In this document: positions 49,037-63,243 of the stretch, one piece after another
Layout: each line of letters starts with the position of its first letter
Position numbering within the stretch: the stretch's first letter is position 1
Assembly (NCBI RefSeq): GCF_024320785.1
Contig: NZ_JANDBC010000003.1
Coordinates: 496,001-560,000 of the forward strand
Length of the DNA: 64,000 bases
Direction of reading: 5' to 3'
Source of the DNA: Gracilimonas sediminicola
Lineage (GTDB): Bacteria; Bacteroidota; Rhodothermia; Balneolales; Balneolaceae
The notes under the pieces: model-generated
What the model was told of the DNA's origin: nothing
The model's database searches: none
What the model saw: the letters and a program-made list of their open reading frames with translations, nothing else
Translations under genes and position numbers: made by a program

Positions 49037-51730
49037 CTATATGGAATTCAGATAGCTGTGCAGATCTTCATCCGTTTCAATGTTCAGCTTCTTCCGCAGC
49101 CTCGACCTGCTTATATAAACACTGGAGGGTTTGATGTTCAGCATATTAGAAATTTCCTTGGAGTTAAATCCAATCTTGATGTAGGCGCAAAGTCGAAGGT
49201 CGTAGCGGGTAAGGTCGGGGAATTCATCCCTCAGGGTATCAAAAAATTCCTGGTGAAGCTCATCAATCTGTATTTCAAAGGTATTGTCTTCCGGCTCAAT
49301 GTGAGAGTCAATAATCTGAAGGATCTCTGCACTTCTTACTTTTATGGATTCCGGATGTTCTCCGATCTGTTCTAATTTGCTTTTCAGCTTTTGAAGAATC
49401 CTGTTCTTCTCATCGTTCTCTTTAGCTTTGGTCGCAAGCTCAATGGTTTTGGTTTTCAGTTGAGCCTTCAGCTGTTCAAACTCAGCCTGAGACTTCTGCT
49501 GTTCGGCAATTTTAAGCGTCTTTTTATGCTTCTCCTGCTGTTGCTGTAGCGATTTACGCTGATTAATGAGCAGATCCTTTTTCTGTTTACCGAGCGACGC
49601 TTCCTGCCAACGGTACAGCATATAGATAACCATCATCGTGGACAACCCATAAAAAAGGTATGCATACCAGCTCAGGTACCAGGGGGTAGAAATGCTAAAT
49701 CTTATCGTTTCGGCCGGAGTCATGTTACCATTTACCTTTGCTCTTGCCGTAAAAGAGTGTTCGCCATAAGGCAAAGCTAATAAATCAAAGGTGGACTCTT
49801 TAGACCAGCTGCTCCATCTTCCGGTTTCTTCATCCCGGAACTGATAATAGACGCCTTCTTCATTCGGCACAATTCCTCTGATCCTGACGTTGTTAAAGCG
49901 ATGTGATAATTGAGCTCCATCATGTGCTTTAATTTCATTTTCACTGTTGTAGGCTACAACCTCACGGAAAATCAAAGTATGGTTTACACTATCTGCATCT
50001 GCATTATCGTTCAGATTTTTGAATGCAAAGCCATTATAGACCGGGTAAAACTCATAGTTTTCGGTCAGTTGTTCCGGCCGCGAATTTCTTAATAACAGAT
50101 CATCGATTTCTTCAACCTTGGTATCCGGGTTTTGCTCAGTAAAACTCTTCTGATTCGAGTTGTATTCATACCTATGTGATTCGGTAAGTACAACAATTCT
50201 ATCTCCTGTTTTCTTCAGGATATGATCTTCTCCCTTAAATTCTTCAGACAAGAAAATTTCCCTTTCAGCCGGGTATAAATCTTCATTCAGGGTAGCGTTA
50301 ATCACCCCATAGTTGGGAATGTTGATCCAAATGGATTGATCTCTGCCGGTTATGATTTGGTTACAGGATCCAAGAATAAGTTCCATCTTCTGTTGAAACT
50401 GCCATTCTCCATCTTCCATTTCAAAAATTGAAATCCCGTTATAGGTTCCGGCAAGCAGACGATCTTTGTAAGGCTCAAATGTCCATATCCCATTTTGGTC
50501 GCCAAGTTTTCGGGCTGAATTCCCTTCTATGGCAAACATGCCCTGATCGTGTCCCATCAGCAATTGGTTATCAATGGTTTGAAGGGACCATACTTGTCCT
50601 TCGGTGCCATCAACCAGCTCAAATTGATTAAATGCGGAGTTGTTATTTAACGACTGCCAATCTGAAGTATAAAGCCCCTGATTCGTTCCCAGGTAGAATC
50701 TGTCTCCTTTTACTTCTGCGGTATAGCCGGTTCCAAAATCCCCAATGTAGTCGTAGAAGAACGTAAATTCGTTGCTTAAATCAAGAAAAGAAACCCCATA
50801 ATCCATCGACAGCCAGAGCTTCCCTCTTGGTTGATAATGGAGGCTCAACACCGTGTTATTTTGCAACCCTTTGTTCTTATTGATGTGGTGTATCAGGTTG
50901 CCATTGCGGTCGCTGATGTAGAGGCCTTTTAAAATACTTCCGAAAGCAAGATTTGAATCTCCAACCTGCTCAAAACTAAATACACTCGCTGATTTCAGCT
51001 CAGATGACAGACTGTTGTTGATGGGATTAAATTCTCCGGAAGTAAATTGCCACAGTCCTGAGTTTTGAGTCACAAAAACCAATCCCCTTTCATCTTCAAA
51101 CACCCCGATTATATCAGATGGATGCTGTTCCTCGAATGAAACAAGCTGATTGGGAGCTAAATCCCGTAGTTCAAAAACCCCTTCCTGTTCATCTATAAAT
51201 AAGAACCTATCCCCTGCTATAGAACTTTCTCTGATTGAACCCGCGGACGATATTTTTGTGAGATTTTGATCTTTATACACATAAATATTACTTGCCGATA
51301 CAAAGAATACTTTTTCATTCAGATAATGAACGTTCCAGAATTCTTCATTTATTTCGTTCAAGTCTTCTTTAAACGGGTATAAAGAAGTGTATTCAAACTC
51401 ACCATATTTGTTCTTCTTCCACATCCCAAAATCAAGGTCAGAACCCGTGTAGATAAGCGAATCATTTTGCACTAAAATGGACCTGATGATTCCCTGGCTT
51501 CCTTTGTAATCTTTCCAGATTTGTCCGTCATACTCTAACAGCCCCCGGTCTGCAGCCATATATACCAAACCACTGGGTGCACTATCAATATCCCATACCT
51601 TACCAAAGTGATGATACTCGGACGGGCTGAAACTTTTCAGTAATGGAACCCCCTTTTCAGGTAAATCCTGTGCATAACCTGACATCAATCCGGATAACAA
51701 GAACAAAATACAGGTAATGACGGCTTTCAA
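49037..51730 (-). CDS. Transmembrane propeller/Y_Y_Y regulator with LuxR-type HTH, likely glucan sensor
   Basis: An 897-aa membrane regulator. The TTG at 51730 starts a signal peptide (MKAVITCILFLLSGLMSGYAQ), and no better start is upstream. A two-component-type propeller of Reg_prop repeats (GLVYMAADRGLLEYDGQIWKDY, split at GL) fills about 30-600. A Y_Y_Y domain follows at about 620-685, then one membrane segment (about 684-708), a long coiled coil (about 715-800), and a C-terminal helix-turn-helix (GFNSKEISNMLNIKPSSVYI, then SRSRLRKKL). No histidine kinase or receiver is present, so signal passes straight to DNA, as in SusR-type regulators. It sits just downstream of the beta-glucan genes on the same strand, and so probably senses their oligosaccharides. 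Confidence 0.85.
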   Translation of the reverse strand: MKAVITCILFLLSGLMSGYAQDLPEKGVPLLKSFSPSEYHHFGKVWDIDSAPSGLVYMAADRGLLEYDGQIWKDYKGSQGIIRSILVQNDSLIYTGSDLDFGMWKKNKYGEFEYTSLYPFKEDLNEINEEFWNVHYLNEKVFFVSASNIYVYKDQNLTKISSAGSIRESSIAGDRFLFIDEQEGVFELRDLAPNQLVSFEEQHPSDIIGVFEDERGLVFVTQNSGLWQFTSGEFNPINNSLSSELKSASVFSFEQVGDSNLAFGSILKGLYISDRNGNLIHHINKNKGLQNNTVLSLHYQPRGKLWLSMDYGVSFLDLSNEFTFFYDYIGDFGTGYTAEVKGDRFYLGTNQGLYTSDWQSLNNNSAFNQFELVDGTEGQVWSLQTIDNQLLMGHDQGMFAIEGNSARKLGDQNGIWTFEPYKDRLLAGTYNGISIFEMEDGEWQFQQKMELILGSCNQIITGRDQSIWINIPNYGVINATLNEDLYPAEREIFLSEEFKGEDHILKKTGDRIVVLTESHRYEYNSNQKSFTEQNPDTKVEEIDDLLLRNSRPEQLTENYEFYPVYNGFAFKNLNDNADADSVNHTLIFREVVAYNSENEIKAHDGAQLSHRFNNVRIRGIVPNEEGVYYQFRDEETGRWSSWSKESTFDLLALPYGEHSFTARAKVNGNMTPAETIRFSISTPWYLSWYAYLFYGLSTMMVIYMLYRWQEASLGKQKKDLLINQRKSLQQQQEKHKKTLKIAEQQKSQAEFEQLKAQLKTKTIELATKAKENDEKNRILQKLKSKLEQIGEHPESIKVRSAEILQIIDSHIEPEDNTFEIQIDELHQEFFDTLRDEFPDLTRYDLRLCAYIKIGFNSKEISNMLNIKPSSVYISRSRLRKKLNIETDEDLHSYLNSI

Positions 51731-51932: not shown

Positions 51933-52856
51933 TTACATTTCTTGGAGAGCCAGTTTTGGAGTTCTGTCGATTTTAAATATTCCCCAGTGTTTTTCAGGCT
52001 CTGAAGGATCGTCTGACCCTTTCCAGTCTTCATCAAAAGCTTCAAAAAAGAATGTGGGAATACCTTCCTTGATTGTCCATTCCGTTAACTCTTCAAAGTA
52101 TCGCTTTTGGTTTTCTTCATTCACTTGTAGCGGATCGATACCCTGCCCATTGGAGCGAGTTGTCCACCCTGCTTCTGATATTACAACCGGCTTATCAGGA
52201 TACTTTTCAGCTACTGCATAATAATTTTCTTTTGTGTAATCGAGCCCGGCTTGTATTGATTTGTATTCCCACACCGGATACGTATGTATGGAAATAAAGT
52301 CTAACTCGGTAGCCAATTCTTCAAGTTTATTTAACCACGGCACATAATTCTCGCAAAATGTTACGGGTATGTTTGTCCGTTCTTTCACCCTCTTAACATA
52401 GTACAGTACTTTTTGTTCAGGAACCATATGATCCGTCCAATCCACACAAGCTTCATTTCCAACAGATAGTGCGAAAACAATATCAGAATATTGGATTCCC
52501 ATCTCTATAAGCCGATCTATCTTTTTCAAATTGCGTTCGGCATTCTCTTCTAAATCAGGTTTTGAATAGATCCCTCCACCCCAGGGACAATTAAAATTAT
52601 TGGTCTCAGCTTCTATAAAGGCACCAAGCATAACCTGAAGGTCAAATGCCTCATTTCTGATAACCTCCAACACCGTCTTTGAATGATCATCGCAATCGTA
52701 AAGACGAATATATTTCCAATACTTTGTGATCAGGGTCAAGTCTTCCTTTACCTGCTCGTAAGTAGGAATCGTATTCCCCGGTTTTTGTCCCTTTCTATAG
52801 CCTGAGTAGCAAATCGCCAAGCCGGGTCCAATCCCGATTTTCTGAAAATTATTCAT
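51933..52856 (-). CDS. Cytoplasmic GH17 beta-1,3-glucanase/glucanosyltransferase-like enzyme
   Basis: A 307-aa GH17 barrel with no signal peptide, so probably cytoplasmic. Acid/base Glu135 is in LSVGNEACVDW and nucleophile Glu228 in VVISEAGWTT. Aromatic subsite residues appear as HTYPVWEY and FFFEAFDEDWKG. GH17 enzymes cut beta-1,3-glucans or transfer glucanosyl units. It is the last gene of the cluster, 2 bp after another GH17 gene. The EACVDW form differs from the two neighbours, so this copy is a diverged paralogue, closer to the lipoprotein copy at 57658-58929. Confidence 0.88.
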   Translation of the reverse strand: MNNFQKIGIGPGLAICYSGYRKGQKPGNTIPTYEQVKEDLTLITKYWKYIRLYDCDDHSKTVLEVIRNEAFDLQVMLGAFIEAETNNFNCPWGGGIYSKPDLEENAERNLKKIDRLIEMGIQYSDIVFALSVGNEACVDWTDHMVPEQKVLYYVKRVKERTNIPVTFCENYVPWLNKLEELATELDFISIHTYPVWEYKSIQAGLDYTKENYYAVAEKYPDKPVVISEAGWTTRSNGQGIDPLQVNEENQKRYFEELTEWTIKEGIPTFFFEAFDEDWKGSDDPSEPEKHWGIFKIDRTPKLALQEM

Positions 52857-52858
52857 GG

Positions 52859-53767
52859 TCAGTATTTAAGCTTCCCATTTTTATCCCATATACCCCAGTA
52901 AGCTCCTACATCACCTTCACTACCGACTTTCCAGGACTCATCGAATGAGGAAAAGTAGAATACCTCGATTTCTTCATCCTGAGTCCACAGGCAAGCGTTG
53001 ATGAAATACTTTTTCGCATTTTCTTCGGATGGTTTGGCTTCCCCCAAAGATGACCCTTCGCTCGGCCAGCCGGTTTCGGTTATTATGACCTTCTTCCCAT
53101 TTCCTGCTTCTTTGGCCTGATGGTACATTTGCCGCATGTGCTGCAATGAATTTTCAAAGCTTGTTCCTTCCCAAAAAGGATAACAGTTACAGAGAATCAC
53201 ATCACAAACCTCTGTGAGATCAGGCCGGCGAACGAACTCATAATAGGCATCAACATATCCAACCGGAATGTCTGCCGGAATGGCTTTTCGGACTTTTTGG
53301 ATGTACTCAATTAAGGTTTTTTCGTCCATCTCTTTTCGATAGAGTACCTCATTCCCTACAGCAGCAATATCAACTACCCCTTCATTGGCTAACTTAATCA
53401 GGTTATCTATCTCTTTGCTGTTTTTTTCTTCATCTTCACCAAGCCATGCTCCTGTAAGCGTTGTCATCCCAAATTCTTTGGCTACCTTTGGAACGTGTTC
53501 GTTACCCTCAGTCGTTGAAAATGAGCGTATAGCCTCTGTATGTGGTTTTAGAATTTCTATTCTTTTCTTTATTTGAGCTTCAGATACAATAGTCCCCGGA
53601 CCTTGCCCTTCTTCGTACATACTGTAGCAAAACCCATAGATACCATTATCCAACACTTCCCGAAAGAGGTTGTCAATGTCCGATGCGGACATCTCATCCA
53701 GGTACTCCAGCTTTGGGATAAGGTCAGACCGCTTATAGGTTAAAAATTTCTCTTTTCTATACGACAT
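52859..53767 (-). CDS. Cytoplasmic GH17 beta-1,3-glucanase-like enzyme
   Basis: A 302-aa GH17 enzyme without signal peptide. Acid/base Glu140 (AAVGNEVLY) and nucleophile Glu231 (VIITETGWPSEGSS) are both present. It is clearly homologous along its length to the C-terminal domain of the neighbouring transporter fusion: both share VGYVDAYY, NCYPFWEG, ETGWP and VEAFYFSSFDESWK-like blocks. The two are probably products of a tandem duplication. Its ATG is 1 bp after the fusion gene's stop, so the genes are tightly coupled. It likely trims imported laminari-oligosaccharides. Confidence 0.88.
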   Translation of the reverse strand: MSYRKEKFLTYKRSDLIPKLEYLDEMSASDIDNLFREVLDNGIYGFCYSMYEEGQGPGTIVSEAQIKKRIEILKPHTEAIRSFSTTEGNEHVPKVAKEFGMTTLTGAWLGEDEEKNSKEIDNLIKLANEGVVDIAAVGNEVLYRKEMDEKTLIEYIQKVRKAIPADIPVGYVDAYYEFVRRPDLTEVCDVILCNCYPFWEGTSFENSLQHMRQMYHQAKEAGNGKKVIITETGWPSEGSSLGEAKPSEENAKKYFINACLWTQDEEIEVFYFSSFDESWKVGSEGDVGAYWGIWDKNGKLKY

Positions 53768-53768
53768 T

Positions 53769-56138
53769 TCAGTTTACCTTTAATTTTTCGTTCTTATCCC
53801 ACAGCCCCCAGCGCGCTCCAACGTCACCTTCATGTCGGGCTTTCCAGGATTCATCAAATGATGAGAAATAAAAGGCTTCAACCTGTTCAAGCCTGGACCA
53901 TTTATTCAGGTTGATAAAATATTTCATCATGTTTTCCATTGATGGTTCCGCTACACCCACACTGCTTCCATCGGTAGGCCATCCAGTTTCTGATATGATC
54001 ACTTTCTTGTTTCCGGATATGCTTTTTACCACTTCATGCATTTTCTGAAGATATGTGAGCGAATGTTTAGCATTATAGCCCTCCCAAAATGGATAGCAAT
54101 TGATCATAACTACATCACAGGCTTCAACAATTTTAGGGCTTGTGTACATTTGGTAGTATGCATCCACATAGCCCACTTTAATACCTGGCACTGCTTGCTT
54201 AACACGGTTTATGTATTCCAGAATCTCATCCTCACTGAGTTCTTCCCGAAGCAGGCATTCGTTTCCGATGGCTGCAATATCCACCGATCCTTTATTTGCT
54301 AAATCAATAAGATTCATGATTTCTTCTTCATTCGAATCCTTATCATCGTCAATCCATGCTCCTACCAACGTACTTAAGCCGTTTTCCTTCGCTACTTCGG
54401 GAATCCATTGATTACCCTCTGTACAGGAGAATGAGCGAACCCATTTAGTATAGGGTGCAATCACTTTCATCCTTTTTTCAATCTGATCTCTGGATAGCTG
54501 ATCCCCTATGTTTTGACCGTCAAGGTATGGGCTGAAACAAAGTCCGTGCATGCCTTTATTCAGAACGGCCTTAAATTCATTTTCCAGTTCCTTTCCGCTC
54601 TTTTCATTCACCCCAAATGGATCTTCATCCATTGACACATCAACCTTGGTAAGCGCTAATAACTTGTCTTTTTTATAAAAATATGGCGCCGGAGCTGCCT
54701 CTTTTTTACTTTTTCGAGCCTCTAATATGTCACTGATCTCATTAGCTTTCTCTTCAGTAAGGTCATAGGTATACATTACAGCCATTGCTATCAGGGTTCC
54801 GGTAATGGGAAGACCTGAGAAAAATAATCTTAGCCCGGTCATAGGTGCACCAAAAGTGCTGCCTGATTCCACGTCAAATCCTACCAGGGTCATAATTGCT
54901 CCGGTTGCGAGGCCTGCAATAGCAAAACCGAATTTTACCATCCACCAGTAGATAGCGCCGAAAATCCCTTCCCTTCGTTTACCGGTCTTTAGCTCATCCA
55001 AATCGCAAACATCGGCTGTCATTGACATCATGAGGGTAAATAAACTTCCGATGCCAAAGGAGAAAAAAGGTAAGGCAAACAAGAAAAGCCAGGGTTTTCC
55101 GGGTACAAATAAAAACCATAAGAGAATGTAACCGATAAGAGAAATACCCTGACACACCAGAAAGGCTTTTCTTTTTCCAATCTTCCTGGAAATCCACGCA
55201 GTGGCCGGGATCACAAAGAACGTTGTACCTAAAGCACCCACACTGCCAAATAAAGTGGGCCAAACACCTGCCGCTGCTGCATCTCCTCTAAACAGATAAT
55301 AGACCACTATAAAAAAGGTGAAGGAAGCTACTGTATTAAAGGAATTAAATATCAAAAAAGTAGAGATACACAGCTTTCGAAATGCTTTGATCTGAAAAGA
55401 TTCTTTAAATCCTTCAAGTATAGATTTCAGGCTCCCCCCGATATTTGATACGGTAAGAGGTTCAAAATCATCCCGGTCTTTAGTCGATTTTGTTTTTATA
55501 AACACAGCCGGTGCCATAGCCAGTAAGGCACAGATAACTCCTACCCAAATAGCCAGTGTACGGGTTGCTGTATCTGCATTTGGAAACCAATCCGGGTCGT
55601 ACATAACCACCCAAAACCAGGGAGCAATTACCCAGGCCCATTGCCCAATCCATTGTGCGATTGCCATGATATTGGTTCTTTCATGGAAATTATCGCTCAT
55701 TTCATAGCCCATGGCTACGTAAGGTACGCTGAAAATTGTGAGGCCCAGGTAGAACACGATTGACCAAGCCAAAAAATAAACGAAGTTGTAATCTACCCCG
55801 TTTTCCCGATATAGCTGCCACATTATCCAGAATGAAATTCCCATAATAATAGCCCCGATAAACACATAAATCCGTCGCCGCCCGAATCTGGACCGGGTAT
55901 TGTCGGAGATAAAACCCATTATCGGGTCTGTTACAGAGTCAAAAACGCGAGGCAGAAAAAATAAAATACCCCACATCCAGCCAGGAAACCCCAGATCCTG
56001 AACCAATACGACCATAAATATCCCCATGGCTGCCGGAAACATCTGGTTACTCAACATCCCCAACCCAAAGGCCACCTTTTGCCCAAATGGTACTTTATGC
56101 TTTTCCGGTATTACTTTTTCTGCAGTTTCAGCTTTCAT
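53769..56138 (-). CDS. MFS (GPH-type) sugar transporter fused to a GH17 catalytic domain
   Basis: A 789-aa two-part protein in one continuous reading frame. Residues about 15-460 are a glycoside-pentoside-hexuronide symporter with 12 membrane segments (FLPRVFDSVTDPIMGFISDN, TRSRFGRRRIYVFIGA, SMTADVCDLDELKTGKRREG). A linker of about 25 residues (ILEARKSKKEAAPAPYFYKK) leads to a complete GH17 domain, about 490-789, with acid/base Glu627 (AAIGNECLL) and nucleophile Glu717 (VIISETGWPT). In this symporter fold both ends lie in the cytoplasm, so the glucanase would meet substrate as it emerges. Flanked by GH17 and GH30 genes. Import of beta-1,3-gluco-oligosaccharides is inferred. Confidence 0.9.
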   Translation of the reverse strand: MKAETAEKVIPEKHKVPFGQKVAFGLGMLSNQMFPAAMGIFMVVLVQDLGFPGWMWGILFFLPRVFDSVTDPIMGFISDNTRSRFGRRRIYVFIGAIIMGISFWIMWQLYRENGVDYNFVYFLAWSIVFYLGLTIFSVPYVAMGYEMSDNFHERTNIMAIAQWIGQWAWVIAPWFWVVMYDPDWFPNADTATRTLAIWVGVICALLAMAPAVFIKTKSTKDRDDFEPLTVSNIGGSLKSILEGFKESFQIKAFRKLCISTFLIFNSFNTVASFTFFIVVYYLFRGDAAAAGVWPTLFGSVGALGTTFFVIPATAWISRKIGKRKAFLVCQGISLIGYILLWFLFVPGKPWLFLFALPFFSFGIGSLFTLMMSMTADVCDLDELKTGKRREGIFGAIYWWMVKFGFAIAGLATGAIMTLVGFDVESGSTFGAPMTGLRLFFSGLPITGTLIAMAVMYTYDLTEEKANEISDILEARKSKKEAAPAPYFYKKDKLLALTKVDVSMDEDPFGVNEKSGKELENEFKAVLNKGMHGLCFSPYLDGQNIGDQLSRDQIEKRMKVIAPYTKWVRSFSCTEGNQWIPEVAKENGLSTLVGAWIDDDKDSNEEEIMNLIDLANKGSVDIAAIGNECLLREELSEDEILEYINRVKQAVPGIKVGYVDAYYQMYTSPKIVEACDVVMINCYPFWEGYNAKHSLTYLQKMHEVVKSISGNKKVIISETGWPTDGSSVGVAEPSMENMMKYFINLNKWSRLEQVEAFYFSSFDESWKARHEGDVGARWGLWDKNEKLKVN

Positions 56139-56156: not shown

Positions 56157-57644
56157 TCAATTATTGGGTGGTATGATAACCGTTTGTAAAGCTTTACCCT
56201 GAATGGCAAATGCGGTACTTCTTCCATCTAAATCCAGCTCAACGCCTTTGGCTTCTTCACTTTGATTTAGAATAACAACCGCTATAGATCCATCAGGATT
56301 TTTTGCGGCCGTAAGCAATAAGTCCGTTTCATCGGTCTCAAACCCGATTCGTTTAGCGCCGGGTCGTATATATCGACTGAAATGAGACATCGTGTAGTAC
56401 AGAGGGGTGAAATAAACTTCATCAGCTTCCTCATCAACAATCACAGGTGCCAGGCACCAATTGTTTGCCCAATTTGGACCGCCCTGTCTGTTTAAGACCA
56501 TATTCCAATCCACCCAACCATCAACCCAATTGTTAAGCGTGCCTATTATATCCCTTGCATACCTGAACACCGGCACATATTTGGGATGTAAATATTTTTG
56601 TTCATCCGGAGCCCAGTCCCATCCCCAGTCGGTAGCTTCTTTTGACCAATACCATTCATCATCTTGCCAAACAGGCACATCGGCATCAGCAGTAGCTTCC
56701 GTTTGTATCAAGTACTTATTAGGAGCTGCTTTGTGTGCATATTGTAATGCTTCGGGGAATACTTCATATGTACTGGCATACCAGTGGATGGCAATGCCAT
56801 CGAAATAGGAAGCAGCTTTTTCATCCCCATACATTACATCGACCCACTCTTTAAGGTGATCACGATTTTGATCATATCCCAACAGCACCACATCATGTCC
56901 TTGGTTTTCCAGCGTTGGACCGAGATGGTTAGCCACAAAATCATTCATTTCCTCCGGGGTGTAGTGCATACTTTCCCAGTTTTCTCCATTCCCCAGCGGC
57001 TCATTTTCCACCGTTATTCCCCAGATATCTATACCCTCGGCCTTGTAGGCTTTTAAATACCGGGAAAAGAACAGGGCCCAGGCATCGTAATATTCCGGTA
57101 ACAATTTTCCACCTTTCCAGGCTTTATTGTCTTTCATCCATGGCGGAGCTGTCCAGGGAGAGGATATGATCTTAAACCCATCTTCTGAGACAGCCATCGC
57201 ATCTTTGATCATTGGAATGATGTCATCCCGGTCTTCATCAATGGAAAAGTGCTCTAAGGCTGTGTCGCCTTCCACCGGTGCATAAGAGTAATTGCCCAGA
57301 GAGAAATCGCTGGAATTCATATGGGTGCGGGTGAGCGAGTACCGGGCTCCTGATTCCCCAAAATAGGCTTCTATAATACGTTCCCTGTTTTCATTGCTTA
57401 ACTCGTTCAGTAAATAAGCTGAAGATTCTGTAAAAGACCCACCAAAACCGGTGATTTCCTGGAAACTGCTATCAGGCCTAAGCGCAATTCTCACCGTGTC
57501 TTTAGCTGACGGGAATTCCTTTAATTGCGTCAGCTTGTTTCCGCTTTCTGAAGTCTCGTAAACTTGAATGTTAAGAGGTTGTGAGGTACAACTTGCCATG
57601 AGTAATGCCAGTATTGAAAGGATCAGGGTTTTATAATGTGACAT
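56157..57644 (-). CDS. GH30 beta-glucan hydrolase lipoprotein
   Basis: A 495-aa enzyme with lipoprotein signal ending at Cys19 (LLMASC). The GH30 opening FQEITGFGGSFTESSAYLL, acid/base Glu215 (GITVENEPLG) and nucleophile Glu316 (IQTEATAD) are visible, with the extra beta domain at the C-terminus (LLLTAAKNPDGSIAVVILNQ). GH30 enzymes include glucosylceramidases and beta-1,6-glucanases. In laminarin loci of marine Bacteroidota they remove beta-1,6 branches, which is the best guess here. The gene lies 18 bp before the transporter fusion and 13 bp after a GH17 gene. Confidence 0.9.
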   Translation of the reverse strand: MSHYKTLILSILALLMASCTSQPLNIQVYETSESGNKLTQLKEFPSAKDTVRIALRPDSSFQEITGFGGSFTESSAYLLNELSNENRERIIEAYFGESGARYSLTRTHMNSSDFSLGNYSYAPVEGDTALEHFSIDEDRDDIIPMIKDAMAVSEDGFKIISSPWTAPPWMKDNKAWKGGKLLPEYYDAWALFFSRYLKAYKAEGIDIWGITVENEPLGNGENWESMHYTPEEMNDFVANHLGPTLENQGHDVVLLGYDQNRDHLKEWVDVMYGDEKAASYFDGIAIHWYASTYEVFPEALQYAHKAAPNKYLIQTEATADADVPVWQDDEWYWSKEATDWGWDWAPDEQKYLHPKYVPVFRYARDIIGTLNNWVDGWVDWNMVLNRQGGPNWANNWCLAPVIVDEEADEVYFTPLYYTMSHFSRYIRPGAKRIGFETDETDLLLTAAKNPDGSIAVVILNQSEEAKGVELDLDGRSTAFAIQGKALQTVIIPPNN

Positions 57645-57657
57645 AGATTTAGATTTT

Positions 57658-58929
57658 TTATTCAGCCGATTTAATTTCGCTATTCACTGGTGGTACTTTT
57701 ACGGTGTTTAAGAGAGAGTCCATATTGCCATTAAACGTTTTTGTGATTGGCTTTCCGTCACGGGTTAATCCTTCGAATACCCCGGCATCCACTTCATCCC
57801 ATAACACGTATTTTGCTTCCGACTGCAGATTGATGAGACCAAAGTGATTTTCAGATCCCAATGGATTGGCCGCGTCTTTCCATTTTTCGTCAAAAGCTTC
57901 GAAATAGAATACCGAAACACCGTTTTCTTCCGACCACTCCCTTATCATATCATGATAGAGAGCCATTTTATACTCATCGGTTGCCCTGGATCCTTCATCC
58001 CCGTATAAAGTGTTGGATACGGTAGCCCAACCAGTTTCACCAATATGAACCTGCTTATTAATCCCTAAACTCCGCATGTATTCAACCACGCTTTCATATT
58101 GATCAATTGCATAATCCAGAGAACGCTGCATAGCTGCATCAATCTTTTCCATATCACTCAGGTCCGTCTCGCTTTCCGCTACTCCCCAAAAGACCGGATG
58201 GTAATGTGTATCGTGCATGGGATAGGTATGCATCGAAATATAGTCGACTGCTTCAATTAGCTTATTCAGATCTTCTTTATGATAATCTTCACTACCGCCG
58301 CCCCAGGAGGCAAAATTATCAGAACTCGTAATCCATAAGTCTTTGGGAAGGTCTCCCTTGGATTTTAGCTGTTGTAAATGATTTACCCAGTGAAGTATGA
58401 TCCCGGGTTCCACATAATACTCTGTTTGCCAGTGTACCATTGCTTCATTTCCTACAGCAAGTACCTTTACAATATCAGGGTATTTGTTTGCAAGCCTGAC
58501 TGCCCGTTCTATCTCTTTGGCATTATCCGGGTTGTCTTCATCCCGAATACGTTCCGGCTCATCGGTCCAGGCATTTATCGCATCAATCCAGGCTCCCATC
58601 ATTACATACATCTCAAAAGAAGGATCATTTTCTTTCATTTCGTGTATAGCTTGCAGCAAGCGTGGTACGGCTTGAAGAGTAACATTATAGGTTCTCACCA
58701 TTTTTATACCCATTGCTGAAAGAAGTCTCATGTCTTCTTTCAAGTCTGCAATTGAGGGAACGCTGTCGCGTGATATATCCCGATACCCACTGTAGGATAT
58801 AGCCGGATAATTTATGGGATCCGCTAATATTTCTTCAGCCGTTTTCTTCATATCTGATTCTGATTCACTGCTGCAACTTATTCCAAAACACAGAGCTATA
58901 ATTGCAGCCAATAAAAATAATTTGTTCAT
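57658..58929 (-). CDS. GH17 beta-1,3-glucanase lipoprotein
   Basis: A 423-aa enzyme with a lipoprotein signal ending at Cys19 (CFGISC). The barrel begins YPAISYSGYRDISRDSVPS and has acid/base Glu162 (LAVGNEAMVHW) and nucleophile Glu298 (VHIGETGWAT). HTYPMHDTHYHP and FYFEAFDEKWKDA build the glucan cleft. About 60 extra C-terminal residues have no recognised domain. Unlike the three other GH17 modules in the locus, it is exported, so it should act on oligosaccharides outside the inner membrane. It is followed by the GH30 gene. Confidence 0.88.
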   Translation of the reverse strand: MNKLFLLAAIIALCFGISCSSESESDMKKTAEEILADPINYPAISYSGYRDISRDSVPSIADLKEDMRLLSAMGIKMVRTYNVTLQAVPRLLQAIHEMKENDPSFEMYVMMGAWIDAINAWTDEPERIRDEDNPDNAKEIERAVRLANKYPDIVKVLAVGNEAMVHWQTEYYVEPGIILHWVNHLQQLKSKGDLPKDLWITSSDNFASWGGGSEDYHKEDLNKLIEAVDYISMHTYPMHDTHYHPVFWGVAESETDLSDMEKIDAAMQRSLDYAIDQYESVVEYMRSLGINKQVHIGETGWATVSNTLYGDEGSRATDEYKMALYHDMIREWSEENGVSVFYFEAFDEKWKDAANPLGSENHFGLINLQSEAKYVLWDEVDAGVFEGLTRDGKPITKTFNGNMDSLLNTVKVPPVNSEIKSAE

Positions 58930-58959: not shown

Positions 58960-61900
58960 TCACCTAAGCTGTTTTTTACTGAGCTGCACGTTGATTTGCT
59001 CTACCTTTCCGGTCCGCATAAATATGTTCTGCGATAAGTCTTCATCAAGTGTTGTGCCCTCGGTATTCTTCGTAGAGCCATCTGAAAATACAACCTGTAT
59101 ATGTTGGCCAGATCCGATCTGGTAAATCACAGGAACCTGACAGCAACTGAACAATAAGGCCTCTTCAGGTACCTGTATTTGATCCTTTTGCTGATCCAAC
59201 GAAATCATTCCAACTGATTTTTTTGCAGAGGTGAACTCACTGTGTTTCAGAAGAAATGGATCAAATTGAAGTTTGCCATCCCGGGCTGTTACACCGAGTT
59301 CTCCGATTCGGACTAATATGTCTTCCTTAACTTGTCCGGTCATACCGGGTTGCTGTGCCCCCCGGTGCTCCGGTGTATGTGAATAAGGATCGGTCGGAAA
59401 TGCACCATATAGTTCTGGTGATTTATGAACACCGATGCCTTCTCCTATTTCATCAAAATGTTGGTACAGTCGCTGTTGTACCGCATCATTAGCTGCATTT
59501 TGATAAGCCGAAGCACAGACTTCGTACACGGCAAGATAGAGCTTGGATACCATATGCCAGTAAATGGAACCAAGGCCTTCATAGGCAAAGAAAGTTCCGG
59601 ATCTTCCCGTGAACGCTTTGTGGTTGAACACTTCTTCAAATATATCCAGGATCAGTTGTTTATCCTGTTTTACCAGTTTGCTGTACGTAGAATCTTTTAA
59701 CTTCTCCAGGGCATTTTTCAGATCTGCAGCATTGGTGAAGTTGCCATTGAAATGGTACCCGCCTTCAACATCTTTATTTATTATACCCGTGTGATCATCT
59801 TCAACTAATTTTTGAAGGAGATTTGAACGCTGCACCAGTTCTTCCGGGATATTATTTCTTTCCAGGAACTTTGGTAATTCCTTATTCGGATACAGGATAT
59901 AACTCATTTGGTCTTCACGATAGAGCGAACTCTCACGTAAAGCATCCAGTAGTTGCAGAGCTTCTTCTTCCGATAAGTAACCTGAACTAAGCGCAGCGAC
60001 CTGCCCTTCAAGCATCTCGTCGAGGTAAGAAATAGAAATCTCATCTCCATCTATGCTCATTATATTGTACGCATGATACAGATTATCATCGCGTTTATTG
60101 GCATCAATGGAATGCTCCAGGTATTGAAGGGTTAGCTGAATGAACTCGGAGATTTGGTCGTAGCTAAGGGCTTTTCTGCTTCCTTCAAATTGGCGGGCAT
60201 AAACCTGATCCCTGAACTCACTTCCTGCTTTACCTAAACCTTCTGTAATAGATGCTCTGGTCTTGTCATCAATAGCTCCATTTAAGGCCTCAGAGTAATC
60301 GGTTAGAACGTTAAGGATACTTTCGAATAAACCATGAAGTTCGGTGGATATGTTTATTTCATTGCCTTCATTTTCGGCTACAATTGGCTCAAAGAACTTC
60401 AGAAACCTCCTCAGGTAATAGAGGGTCACCATGGATACTCCATTACCTACCAGCGCATTATTTGCGTCATTCCACTCAGGGCGCTGCGTATTCATCCAGA
60501 TGCCCCCTTCAGGAATAAAATTAGATACTTTGGATAATACGGTGGCCAGAATTTTCTCTAAAAAGTTTATATGATGGATTTCCCCGCTCTGTGTATTTCT
60601 TAAAGCTCCGTCTGCTCCTAATGCAGCAATTTTCTCATTTATGGCTTCGTGGGCAGTAACATCAAATTCAATGGTGTCTTTTGGATCTTTGGCGATCTCC
60701 TCGAACGGTTTGATTTGATAAGGTACATTTGCATAAACAAACGCCTCTTTCGTCATTAACTGCTGCAGCGCATTGGGTTCATATTCTTGATAGAACTCCA
60801 GGAATTTCAATAAATAGATAATCTGATGGTCGCCCCAATAACCGATGTACGACCATGGGTCATCGGGATCAGAAATTTCCCAGTCTATTCCACCTTTAGT
60901 AACCCGGTAAGGATTGTACCCATCAAAGGTGGAGGCATTCAGAAACTTGTAAATCATCCCTTCAATAAACTTGGGATAGGAATGTGCCAGCGCTTCCCAG
61001 TTTTGAAAGATATCCCGCCAGTTGCCCTCGTAATCCAGGATCTTTGATCCATCCTCTTTATGAGTGTTAATGGAGAACTTATTCCATGGCCGACTTGGAT
61101 CTCCATGCCTTCTGCTGAATTTAAGGGGCAAATATTCTTTTCCAAGTCTTAACAGGTCAACATCATCAGTAGCATTTAGTTTTGTATCCAGCTCTGCTTT
61201 GTCAAACATTTCAGGTAAATCAGAGATAAAATCCTGGTTGTCAGTAAATACCTCACGGTTAGCCATCTCCAGGTAATTCAGGAAATCCTGTTTCTCAATC
61301 CTGTAATTGTGATCGAAAGTGCCTCCCCTCATTATGTTGAAAAGCGTATTAGAGTAATGGCGGGCATTGCCCAGTGTATCTGCTGAATGTTGAATCCCGT
61401 CTGCCCCGGCTACTAATTGCTTCAGCTTCCGGGTTCCCCGTTCAATGTCCTCTTTAACCAGCTCTTCTAAACCGTTATTTTCTTTTAAGGTTCGGTTCAA
61501 TTCTATAACGCCGGCGTGGTTCTGATTTACGTTCGCAACTATACTCCATTCTTTGGTGGAACCTTCTTCCAGTTCAAGATCCTTTAAAACAAAATAAGCT
61601 CCCTTTTCGGCCTTCACATCCTCTTCCTGTTCCACAGCTTCCAGTTTTCTGAATGTATCTAACTGGAGAGATGAAACCAGGTACCTTGGGTTATCCAATC
61701 CCATTGACCAAGCTACATTAGCCTTCAGCGCTTCACTGGGTTCAGCTTTATCAACGGGAATGGCACTTAATGCATAGATGCCCAGTCCTGTTTCTGAAAT
61801 GAGCTCATTTCTTTTGTAGGCATCCAAAAGGTTACTGGATCTCACCTGAAGTTCCGGATTAACACCATAGGGTAATATGTTTTGAATGCCATCTAATAGC

Positions 61901-62370
61901 TTAATCCTCTTTTTCTCTCCCGAATGGTTCTGAATGGAAGTATGTCGGACAAACCCATAAATGTTACTTGAATTCCACTGATAGCGAAAGGTTAAACCCA
62001 GGGTATGATTCACCTCTTCAAATAAGATTTTATTGCCATACCAATTCTTGTACAAGTTGCGGCTGATTTTATACTGATTAGCATCTCTTTCGGAAAAGGG
62101 TTCCCATACATGAATACCTCCATCAAAACTAACCTGAAAGATGGTTTTACTTCCTGTGGTGTGTGCAAGCTCGGTTAGTTTGTCATCCGTATAGTATGGA
62201 AATAGGGCAAAATTTGAATTCTTACGACCTGCTGTTAATCCTCCGTTGCTTGATATAAACATCCAGTGATTTGAATCACTTACGATACTCATAAAGAACG
62301 GACGCTGAGAAGCCAGATTTGAAATTTTGAACCAGTTTTCGCCTTGTAATTTTTGAACGGTGATTGACAC
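58960..62370 (-). CDS. Large cytoplasmic protein, putative GH94/149/161-like beta-1,3-glucan phosphorylase
   Basis: A 1136-aa protein from a GTG start (MSITVQKLQGENWFKI) with no signal peptide, so cytoplasmic. Residues about 20-290 look like a beta-sandwich with SSNGGLTAGRKNSNFALFPY. A central helical region includes EGNWRDIFQNWEALAHSYP (about 448-466) and GGIDWEISDPDDPWSYIGYW, a layout like the (alpha/alpha)6 barrels of clan GH-Q phosphorylases, where RD..QN-type motifs surround the general acid. Families GH149 and GH161 contain beta-1,3-glucan phosphorylases of about this size, and this gene lies between a laminarinase and GH17/GH30 genes. The family is not proven by eye. It could be another (alpha/alpha)6 glycosidase. 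Confidence 0.5.
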   Translation of the reverse strand: MSITVQKLQGENWFKISNLASQRPFFMSIVSDSNHWMFISSNGGLTAGRKNSNFALFPYYTDDKLTELAHTTGSKTIFQVSFDGGIHVWEPFSERDANQYKISRNLYKNWYGNKILFEEVNHTLGLTFRYQWNSSNIYGFVRHTSIQNHSGEKKRIKLLDGIQNILPYGVNPELQVRSSNLLDAYKRNELISETGLGIYALSAIPVDKAEPSEALKANVAWSMGLDNPRYLVSSLQLDTFRKLEAVEQEEDVKAEKGAYFVLKDLELEEGSTKEWSIVANVNQNHAGVIELNRTLKENNGLEELVKEDIERGTRKLKQLVAGADGIQHSADTLGNARHYSNTLFNIMRGGTFDHNYRIEKQDFLNYLEMANREVFTDNQDFISDLPEMFDKAELDTKLNATDDVDLLRLGKEYLPLKFSRRHGDPSRPWNKFSINTHKEDGSKILDYEGNWRDIFQNWEALAHSYPKFIEGMIYKFLNASTFDGYNPYRVTKGGIDWEISDPDDPWSYIGYWGDHQIIYLLKFLEFYQEYEPNALQQLMTKEAFVYANVPYQIKPFEEIAKDPKDTIEFDVTAHEAINEKIAALGADGALRNTQSGEIHHINFLEKILATVLSKVSNFIPEGGIWMNTQRPEWNDANNALVGNGVSMVTLYYLRRFLKFFEPIVAENEGNEINISTELHGLFESILNVLTDYSEALNGAIDDKTRASITEGLGKAGSEFRDQVYARQFEGSRKALSYDQISEFIQLTLQYLEHSIDANKRDDNLYHAYNIMSIDGDEISISYLDEMLEGQVAALSSGYLSEEEALQLLDALRESSLYREDQMSYILYPNKELPKFLERNNIPEELVQRSNLLQKLVEDDHTGIINKDVEGGYHFNGNFTNAADLKNALEKLKDSTYSKLVKQDKQLILDIFEEVFNHKAFTGRSGTFFAYEGLGSIYWHMVSKLYLAVYEVCASAYQNAANDAVQQRLYQHFDEIGEGIGVHKSPELYGAFPTDPYSHTPEHRGAQQPGMTGQVKEDILVRIGELGVTARDGKLQFDPFLLKHSEFTSAKKSVGMISLDQQKDQIQVPEEALLFSCCQVPVIYQIGSGQHIQVVFSDGSTKNTEGTTLDEDLSQNIFMRTGKVEQINVQLSKKQLR

Positions 62371-62418: not shown

Positions 62419-63243
62419 TTACTCTGCATAAACCCTCACGTAATCTACAACCATTGTTTGGGGAAATGGTGTACGGCTATTGGGTGATCCAACAAATGAA
62501 CCTCCAACGGCCACATTCAAAATGATGTAGAATGTGTTGTCATTAAAAACCCATTCTCCGTTTACATCCCCGGGATTGATCTCATTATATAATTCATCAT
62601 CCACGTAATACTTAATAAAATCAGGGCCCCATTCTATCGCGAAAAAGTGAAAATCGGTATCAAACCGACTATTAGATAGAACATAGCTATCTGTAACGGC
62701 TTCACCGGCAGAATAGCCCGGCCCGTGCACACTACCGTGTACAATGGTGGGTTCTTGTCCACGATACTCCATGATGTCTATCTCCCCGATTTGAGGCCAG
62801 TTCACCGTTCCATTGCTATCATCTCCAAGCAGCCAAAAAGCCGGCCATATGCCCTGACCGAATGGTAATTTTATGCGGGCTTCAAACCGGCCAAAAGTTT
62901 TTTCGAATTTACCCCTGGTAAGGATGCGGGCTGAAGTATAATCGGAGCCTTCAAATGATTCTTCCCTGGCTGTGATCTCCAAAAAACCATCGTTTATCCG
63001 AACATTCTCGGGACGGTCGGTATAGTACTGCAGCTCATTGTTACCCCAACCCGGACGGCCAAAAATTTCAACTCCGGTTCCTATATCATATGACCAATAA
63101 TCCGAATTTAAACTACCGGAGCCATCAAACTCGTCTTGCCACACAATTTCCTTCTCTTTTTTGTTGGCATCATCATTTATACAACCTGAGGCAAGTCCAA
63201 ATACGATAAACAACAGGGCACATCCTCTCAAAAAGTTACTCAT
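62419..63243 (-). CDS. GH16 laminarinase lipoprotein
   Basis: A 274-aa endo-beta-1,3-glucanase. Lipoprotein signal with Cys21 (GLASGC). The jelly-roll begins WQDEFDGSGSLNSDYW, and the catalytic loop GEIDIMEYRGQ holds nucleophile Glu154, Asp156 and acid/base Glu159. NNELQYYTDRPENVRI and WPAFWLLG are typical of laminarinases in subfamily GH16_3. It lacks CBMs and a sorting domain, so it is tethered by lipid. It should make the first cuts in laminarin. Its gene lies 25 bp after the CBM-type protein gene at the right edge. Confidence 0.95.
   Translation of the reverse strand: MSNFLRGCALLFIVFGLASGCINDDANKKEKEIVWQDEFDGSGSLNSDYWSYDIGTGVEIFGRPGWGNNELQYYTDRPENVRINDGFLEITAREESFEGSDYTSARILTRGKFEKTFGRFEARIKLPFGQGIWPAFWLLGDDSNGTVNWPQIGEIDIMEYRGQEPTIVHGSVHGPGYSAGEAVTDSYVLSNSRFDTDFHFFAIEWGPDFIKYYVDDELYNEINPGDVNGEWVFNDNTFYIILNVAVGGSFVGSPNSRTPFPQTMVVDYVRVYAE

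Follow-up and report, generated by a model that had tools for sequence, protein, structure and literature searches.

The window, i.e. the whole stretch of 64,000 nucleotides of the Gracilimonas sediminicola (Balneolaceae) genome analysed here, carries a single uninterrupted reading frame that encodes an MFS transporter followed by a GH17 domain. In the direction of transcription, this fusion is preceded by genes for a GH16 protein, a GH149 protein, a GH17 lipoprotein and a GH30 lipoprotein, and followed by a pair of free GH17 genes at intervals of 1 and 2 bases:

62419..63243, minus strand: GH16 lipoprotein, probable beta-glucanase (profile match)
58960..62370, minus strand: GH149 beta-1,3-glucan phosphorylase without leader (NCBIfam NF058639, 1739 bits, cut-off 1150)
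57658..58929, minus strand: GH17 lipoprotein (P0004; Pfam; leader LCFGISC/S read by eye)
56157..57644, minus strand: GH30 protein whose leader is of the lipoprotein type; a beta-1,6 debranching role is probable, by analogy with FbGH30
53769..56138, minus strand: MFS-GH17 fusion of 789 aa (P0001), a GPH/MelB-like MFS symporter plus GH17 (open frame; Pfam; AlphaFold)
54753..56069, minus strand: MFS_2 (GPH symporter) domain of the fusion, residues 24-462 (Pfam; MelB comparison)
54570..54752, minus strand: junction, residues 463-523, a cytoplasmic helix after TM12, then the linker (alignment; AlphaFold)
53772..54569, minus strand: GH17 domain, residues ~524-789, with acid/base E627, nucleophile E717 and Leu at E+3 (alignment; structure)
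52859..53767, minus strand: free tandem GH17 (P0002, 302 aa) without leader peptide, with Tyr at E+3 (transglycosylase-like signature)
51933..52856, minus strand: P0003 (307 aa), the other free GH17, which belongs to a different subfamily and lacks a leader peptide
49037..51730, minus strand: probable membrane sensor/regulator with a LuxR-type HTH (GerE) and a beta-propeller-like N-terminus recognized by eye

Both halves of the fusion were identified by profile and by fold. The Pfam MFS_2 model matched residues 24-462 (E 7.5e-62), far exceeding its cut-off, while the score against NCBIfam TIGR00792 (169.7) fell below the cut-off of 231.35; structurally, this half has the features of the GPH group (TC 2.A.2), namely twelve helices, cation-site aspartates and a fold resembling that of MelB. 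For the other half, the Pfam Glyco_hydro_17 match was restricted to residues 708-787 (E 5.2e-11) and to the C-terminal part of the model. Comparison with solved structures aligned residues 549-775 with the Rhizomucor GH17 transferase 4wtp and paired E717 with the position that is altered in 4wtr, an active-site mutant. The motif glutamates of the domain are exactly E627 and E717, neither of which varies among the 60 fused proteins aligned. An AlphaFold model of the whole protein (mean pLDDT 85.6) shows a transporter that resembles MelB and MFSD2A together with a GH17 barrel, the C-terminal part superposing on 4wtr with a target TM-score of 0.88 and an rmsd of 1.9, and its pTM of 0.62 makes the mutual placement of the two halves uncertain. 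The domain thus combines the clan GH-A TIM-barrel fold with the acid/base and nucleophile glutamates of GH17, and the sequence-only reading of this DNA, which had described an in-frame fusion of a GPH symporter with a complete GH17 carrying Glu627 and Glu717, was borne out on both counts.

That reading had also called for a search for other MFS-GH17 architectures with a conserved junction. Such architectures were found as 80 distinct fused frames from independent assemblies, in which the linker is near-constant in length: it spans 58-69 residues (residue 462 to 524 here) in 59 of 60 fused proteins, with a mean column identity of 0.37 versus 0.81 for the MFS part and 0.69 for GH17. In the AlphaFold model, a helix lies directly after TM12 and no extra membrane helix intervenes between TM12 and GH17. 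A sequencing or assembly error joining two separate genes was rejected on the strength of these homologous frames and of their linker length; nothing was found to support such an artefact, whose probability we consider practically nil.

The charge distribution of the transporter half is strongly asymmetric, with a mean K+R count of 29.1 in the loops on the side of both termini versus 3.0 on the opposite side, the helix limits being set by hand from hydropathy. Because of this positive-inside bias and of the homology to MelB, a cytoplasmic position of the GH17 domain, as first proposed from the sequence, is well supported. A periplasmic GH17 domain might be favoured by the coupling of hydrolysis with product uptake that the authors of the 2018 Formosa study considered (PMC6246565). 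Such an orientation was rejected on the charge bias and appears highly improbable, since the twelve helices and this bias place both ends on the cytoplasmic side, the fold is of the MelB type, the junction holds no added membrane helix and the free GH17 paralogues have no leader. All 109 transporters examined (80 fused and 29 unfused homologues) retain D67 and D71, the equivalents of the cation-site Asp pair of MelB, and K402, the equivalent of its Lys377 (helix XI). The segments that align with the sugar-site residues Asp19 and Asp124 of MelB differ, holding residues 31-32 (Asn-Gln) and Ser137, respectively.

The gene neighbourhood is that of a laminarin/beta-1,3-glucan utilization locus, with laminarin as its predicted substrate. 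As in loci of the FbGH17B type, named after a fused protein of Formosa, GH30, GH16/GH17A and GH149 genes adjoin the fusion, and P0004 occupies the gene position of the endo-laminarinase GH17A in published loci. Past the window edge lie a further GH16, a GH5-like protein, a GH3 and a second MFS transporter, and the long frames of the ~16-17 kb past this edge showed no SusC/SusD-like protein or TonB receptor (by eye, with six proteins profile-scanned). A genome search agreed with the earlier count of four GH17 modules and revealed no GH17 elsewhere in the genome searched. Three of these modules had been placed inside the cell, a view upheld for the fused domain by its predicted topology and for P0002 and P0003 by their lack of a hydrophobic leader, their open frames permitting at most 2-3 extra residues. 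P0003 (51933-52856, minus strand) represents a distinct GH17 subfamily, without the Trp-Glu pair that the other two GH17 copies have, and is conserved beside them.

Just past the right edge, the same region also encodes a 1045-residue secreted protein (L115:2173-5310, minus strand; ~65173-68310 in window numbering) in which a GH2/GH72-like barrel at the N-terminus (Pfam GH2_C match, E 3e-8) is followed by ~600 cysteine-free, aromatic-rich residues without family match. This C-terminal part may form an outer-membrane barrel, its strand alternation giving 12 peaks versus 7.7 +/- 2.5 in shuffled sequences, which is a weak test; about 10 relatives share the long form and about 8 the enzyme part only. 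If this barrel is real, the locus would hold a second enzyme-membrane protein fusion.

The fusion is widely conserved. When one genome per species was searched, the best 80 of at least 588 related stretches were loci that nearly all consist of a single open frame; pooling them with the relatives left 80 distinct fused proteins. They occur in Bacteroidota (Flavobacteriaceae, Cyclobacteriaceae, Saprospiraceae, Lewinellaceae, Microscillaceae and others), in Balneolota and in Burkholderiales, the latter including isolates such as Rubrivivax rivuli. Being ranked by similarity to a fused query, this list over-represents fusions. In a less biased set of 58 relatives, the fusion was present in six genomes, the window's own included, a close but unfused transporter in two (G013, G031) and a more distant unfused transporter type in about 20. 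The Burkholderiales fusions form one clade (support 100), suggesting that this order obtained the fusion from Bacteroidota. Several Burkholderiales loci (L066, L069, L085, L095 and others) hold a free GH17, a P0003-type gene and then the fusion, in an order that differs from that of the window. This co-occurrence of the fusion with both free GH17 types suggests that the whole set was transferred from Bacteroidota.

Trees of the transporter and GH17 parts were built by a quick method, the root of the GH17 tree being distant and unsure. On the transporter tree, the fused label requires five changes, four of them forced by strong branches, and unfused transporters nest within the fused clade, both beside the window's protein (G013, G031) and in Flavobacteriaceae; repeated loss of the fusion is the simplest reading. 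The free tandem copies group, on the GH17 tree, in a single clade (support 99) separate from the fused domains, with one exception. This exception (L015:472-2937, minus strand, genome G015) has a longer linker, of 95 residues, between a fused-clade transporter and a free-type GH17, and probably arose by re-fusion or by an in-frame deletion between neighbours, as an apparently independent MFS-GH17 fusion. A stop codon lost between adjacent, co-expressed genes could be kept without functional gain, as might be expected where neighbouring genes lie 1-2 bases apart, where many relatives encode transporter and GH17 in two separate genes side by side and where some lineages lost the fusion. We nevertheless regard neutrality as rather unlikely, since long conservation across three phyla, a fixed linker length and the apparent re-fusion with a different GH17 lineage suggest that the joined state is selected.

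What the tethered domain does with its substrate can be approached through its +1/+2 subsites. In MlGH17B and RmBgt17A, a Tyr at E+3 together with a Trp-Glu pair has been tied to transglycosylation, FbGH17B having Met in place of that Tyr (PMC11005184). This Tyr-Trp-Glu signature of glucanosyltransferases is complete in P0002 and incomplete in the fused Gracilimonas domain, where Trp685 and Glu686 are present and the Tyr is replaced by Leu630. Among the matches listed, Tyr occupies E+3 in 4 of 80 fused versus 53 of 93 free domains, and the Trp-Glu pair occurs in all 80 fused domains and in nearly all free ones. The clean split between Tyr in free and other residues in fused domains that we expected was not found; E+3 is mostly Leu in free copies of Burkholderiales and Pro in many of those of Flavobacteriia, making the signature an association among related sequences and no rule. 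The scarcity of Tyr in fused domains and its frequency in free ones suggest, in line with the published FbGH17B assay, that fused copies are mainly hydrolases. The fused domain could instead act chiefly by glucanosyl transfer, remodelling or storing the glucan that is imported, in the manner of MlGH17B in vitro: the Trp-Glu pair is universal among the fused domains listed, and MlGH17B, a transglycosylase, is 53% identical to FbGH17B (PMC11005184). This alternative seems quite unlikely given Leu630, the rarity of Tyr in the listed fused domains and the release of glucose by the Formosa fused domain with its Met at E+3. More tentatively, and with less than an even chance in our view, work may be divided within one locus, a tethered GH17 hydrolase pulling import forward while the free tandem copy acts as a transglycosylase. 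If so, the repeated losses and the single free-type re-fusion would show selection on tethering itself.

We propose that P0001, as part of its locus, very probably serves the utilization of laminarin (beta-1,3-glucan) as a fusion of transporter and hydrolase, combining import with cytoplasmic trimming. The lipoproteins of families GH16, GH30 and GH17 would produce short laminari-oligosaccharides outside the inner membrane, and the GPH symporter half would import them on a cation gradient. Tethered by a short linker to the cytoplasmic mouth of the transporter, the GH17 half would trim the arriving oligosaccharides, whose products would be handled in the cytoplasm by the GH149 phosphorylase and the two free GH17 proteins. 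The sequence-only reading further proposed that tethering might steepen the inward gradient, a plausible benefit, and might protect against leakage. Cytoplasmic hydrolysis itself would occur tethered or not, because separate adjacent genes are found in many relatives, for which the fusion is thus not required, and because some lineages lost it. Laminarin ranks among the chief carbon currencies of the sea, and a transporter with its own intracellular hydrolase offers a natural setting for testing whether sugar is taken up faster when the enzyme is tethered, with fused, split, lost and re-made forms, together with fused and free paralogues, as natural controls.

The sequence-only reading thus stood for the fusion, its conserved junction, the cytoplasmic C-terminus and the two soluble intracellular GH17 proteins, but the fusion cannot be counted as new. 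The same architecture was reported in 2018 by Unfried et al. for FbGH17B (FORMB_24740) of Formosa sp. Hel1_33_131 and described as "common among marine Flavobacteriia" (PMC6246565), making the finding known in kind; its GH17 domain, assayed in that study, yielded glucose in vitro by hydrolysing laminari-oligosaccharides, and its locus is induced by laminarin (PMC6246565, PMC13188888). FORMB_24740 likewise joins an N-terminal 12-helix MFS transporter and a C-terminal GH17 in one gene, within a laminarin locus holding GH30 and a GH17A-type enzyme, GH16 and GH149 occurring in the laminarin loci of that genome. By contrast, the Gracilimonas fusion belongs to Balneolaceae, has two free GH17 genes directly downstream and, over the ~16-17 kb of long frames inspected past the window edge, is accompanied by no visible TonB receptor or SusD-like gene. 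The Muricauda papers of 2024 and 2026 describe a split arrangement with the transglycosylase MlGH17B, the former stating that whether an attached transporter affects activity was not known. MlGH17B of Muricauda lutaonensis (PMC11005184) shares the position beside an MFS transporter and the catalytic and Trp-Glu residues, but is a separate protein, a transglycosylase with Tyr at E+3 where the fused Gracilimonas domain has Leu. RmBgt17A of Rhizomucor miehei (PDB 4wtp, 4wtr) shares the GH17 fold (TM 0.88) and the catalytic Glu pair, but is a stand-alone fungal transferase with 28% identity to the Gracilimonas GH17. MelB (PDB 4m64, 7l16, 9oli) shares the GPH/MFS fold, the cation-site aspartate pair and the helix XI Lys, and has no enzyme domain, whereas the Gracilimonas transporter carries GH17. 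To these systems our analysis adds the spread of the fusion beyond Flavobacteriia, its evolutionary history and the contrast between fused and free GH17 copies; what was published as a trait of Flavobacteriia should be extended to Balneolota, several other Bacteroidota families and Burkholderiales.
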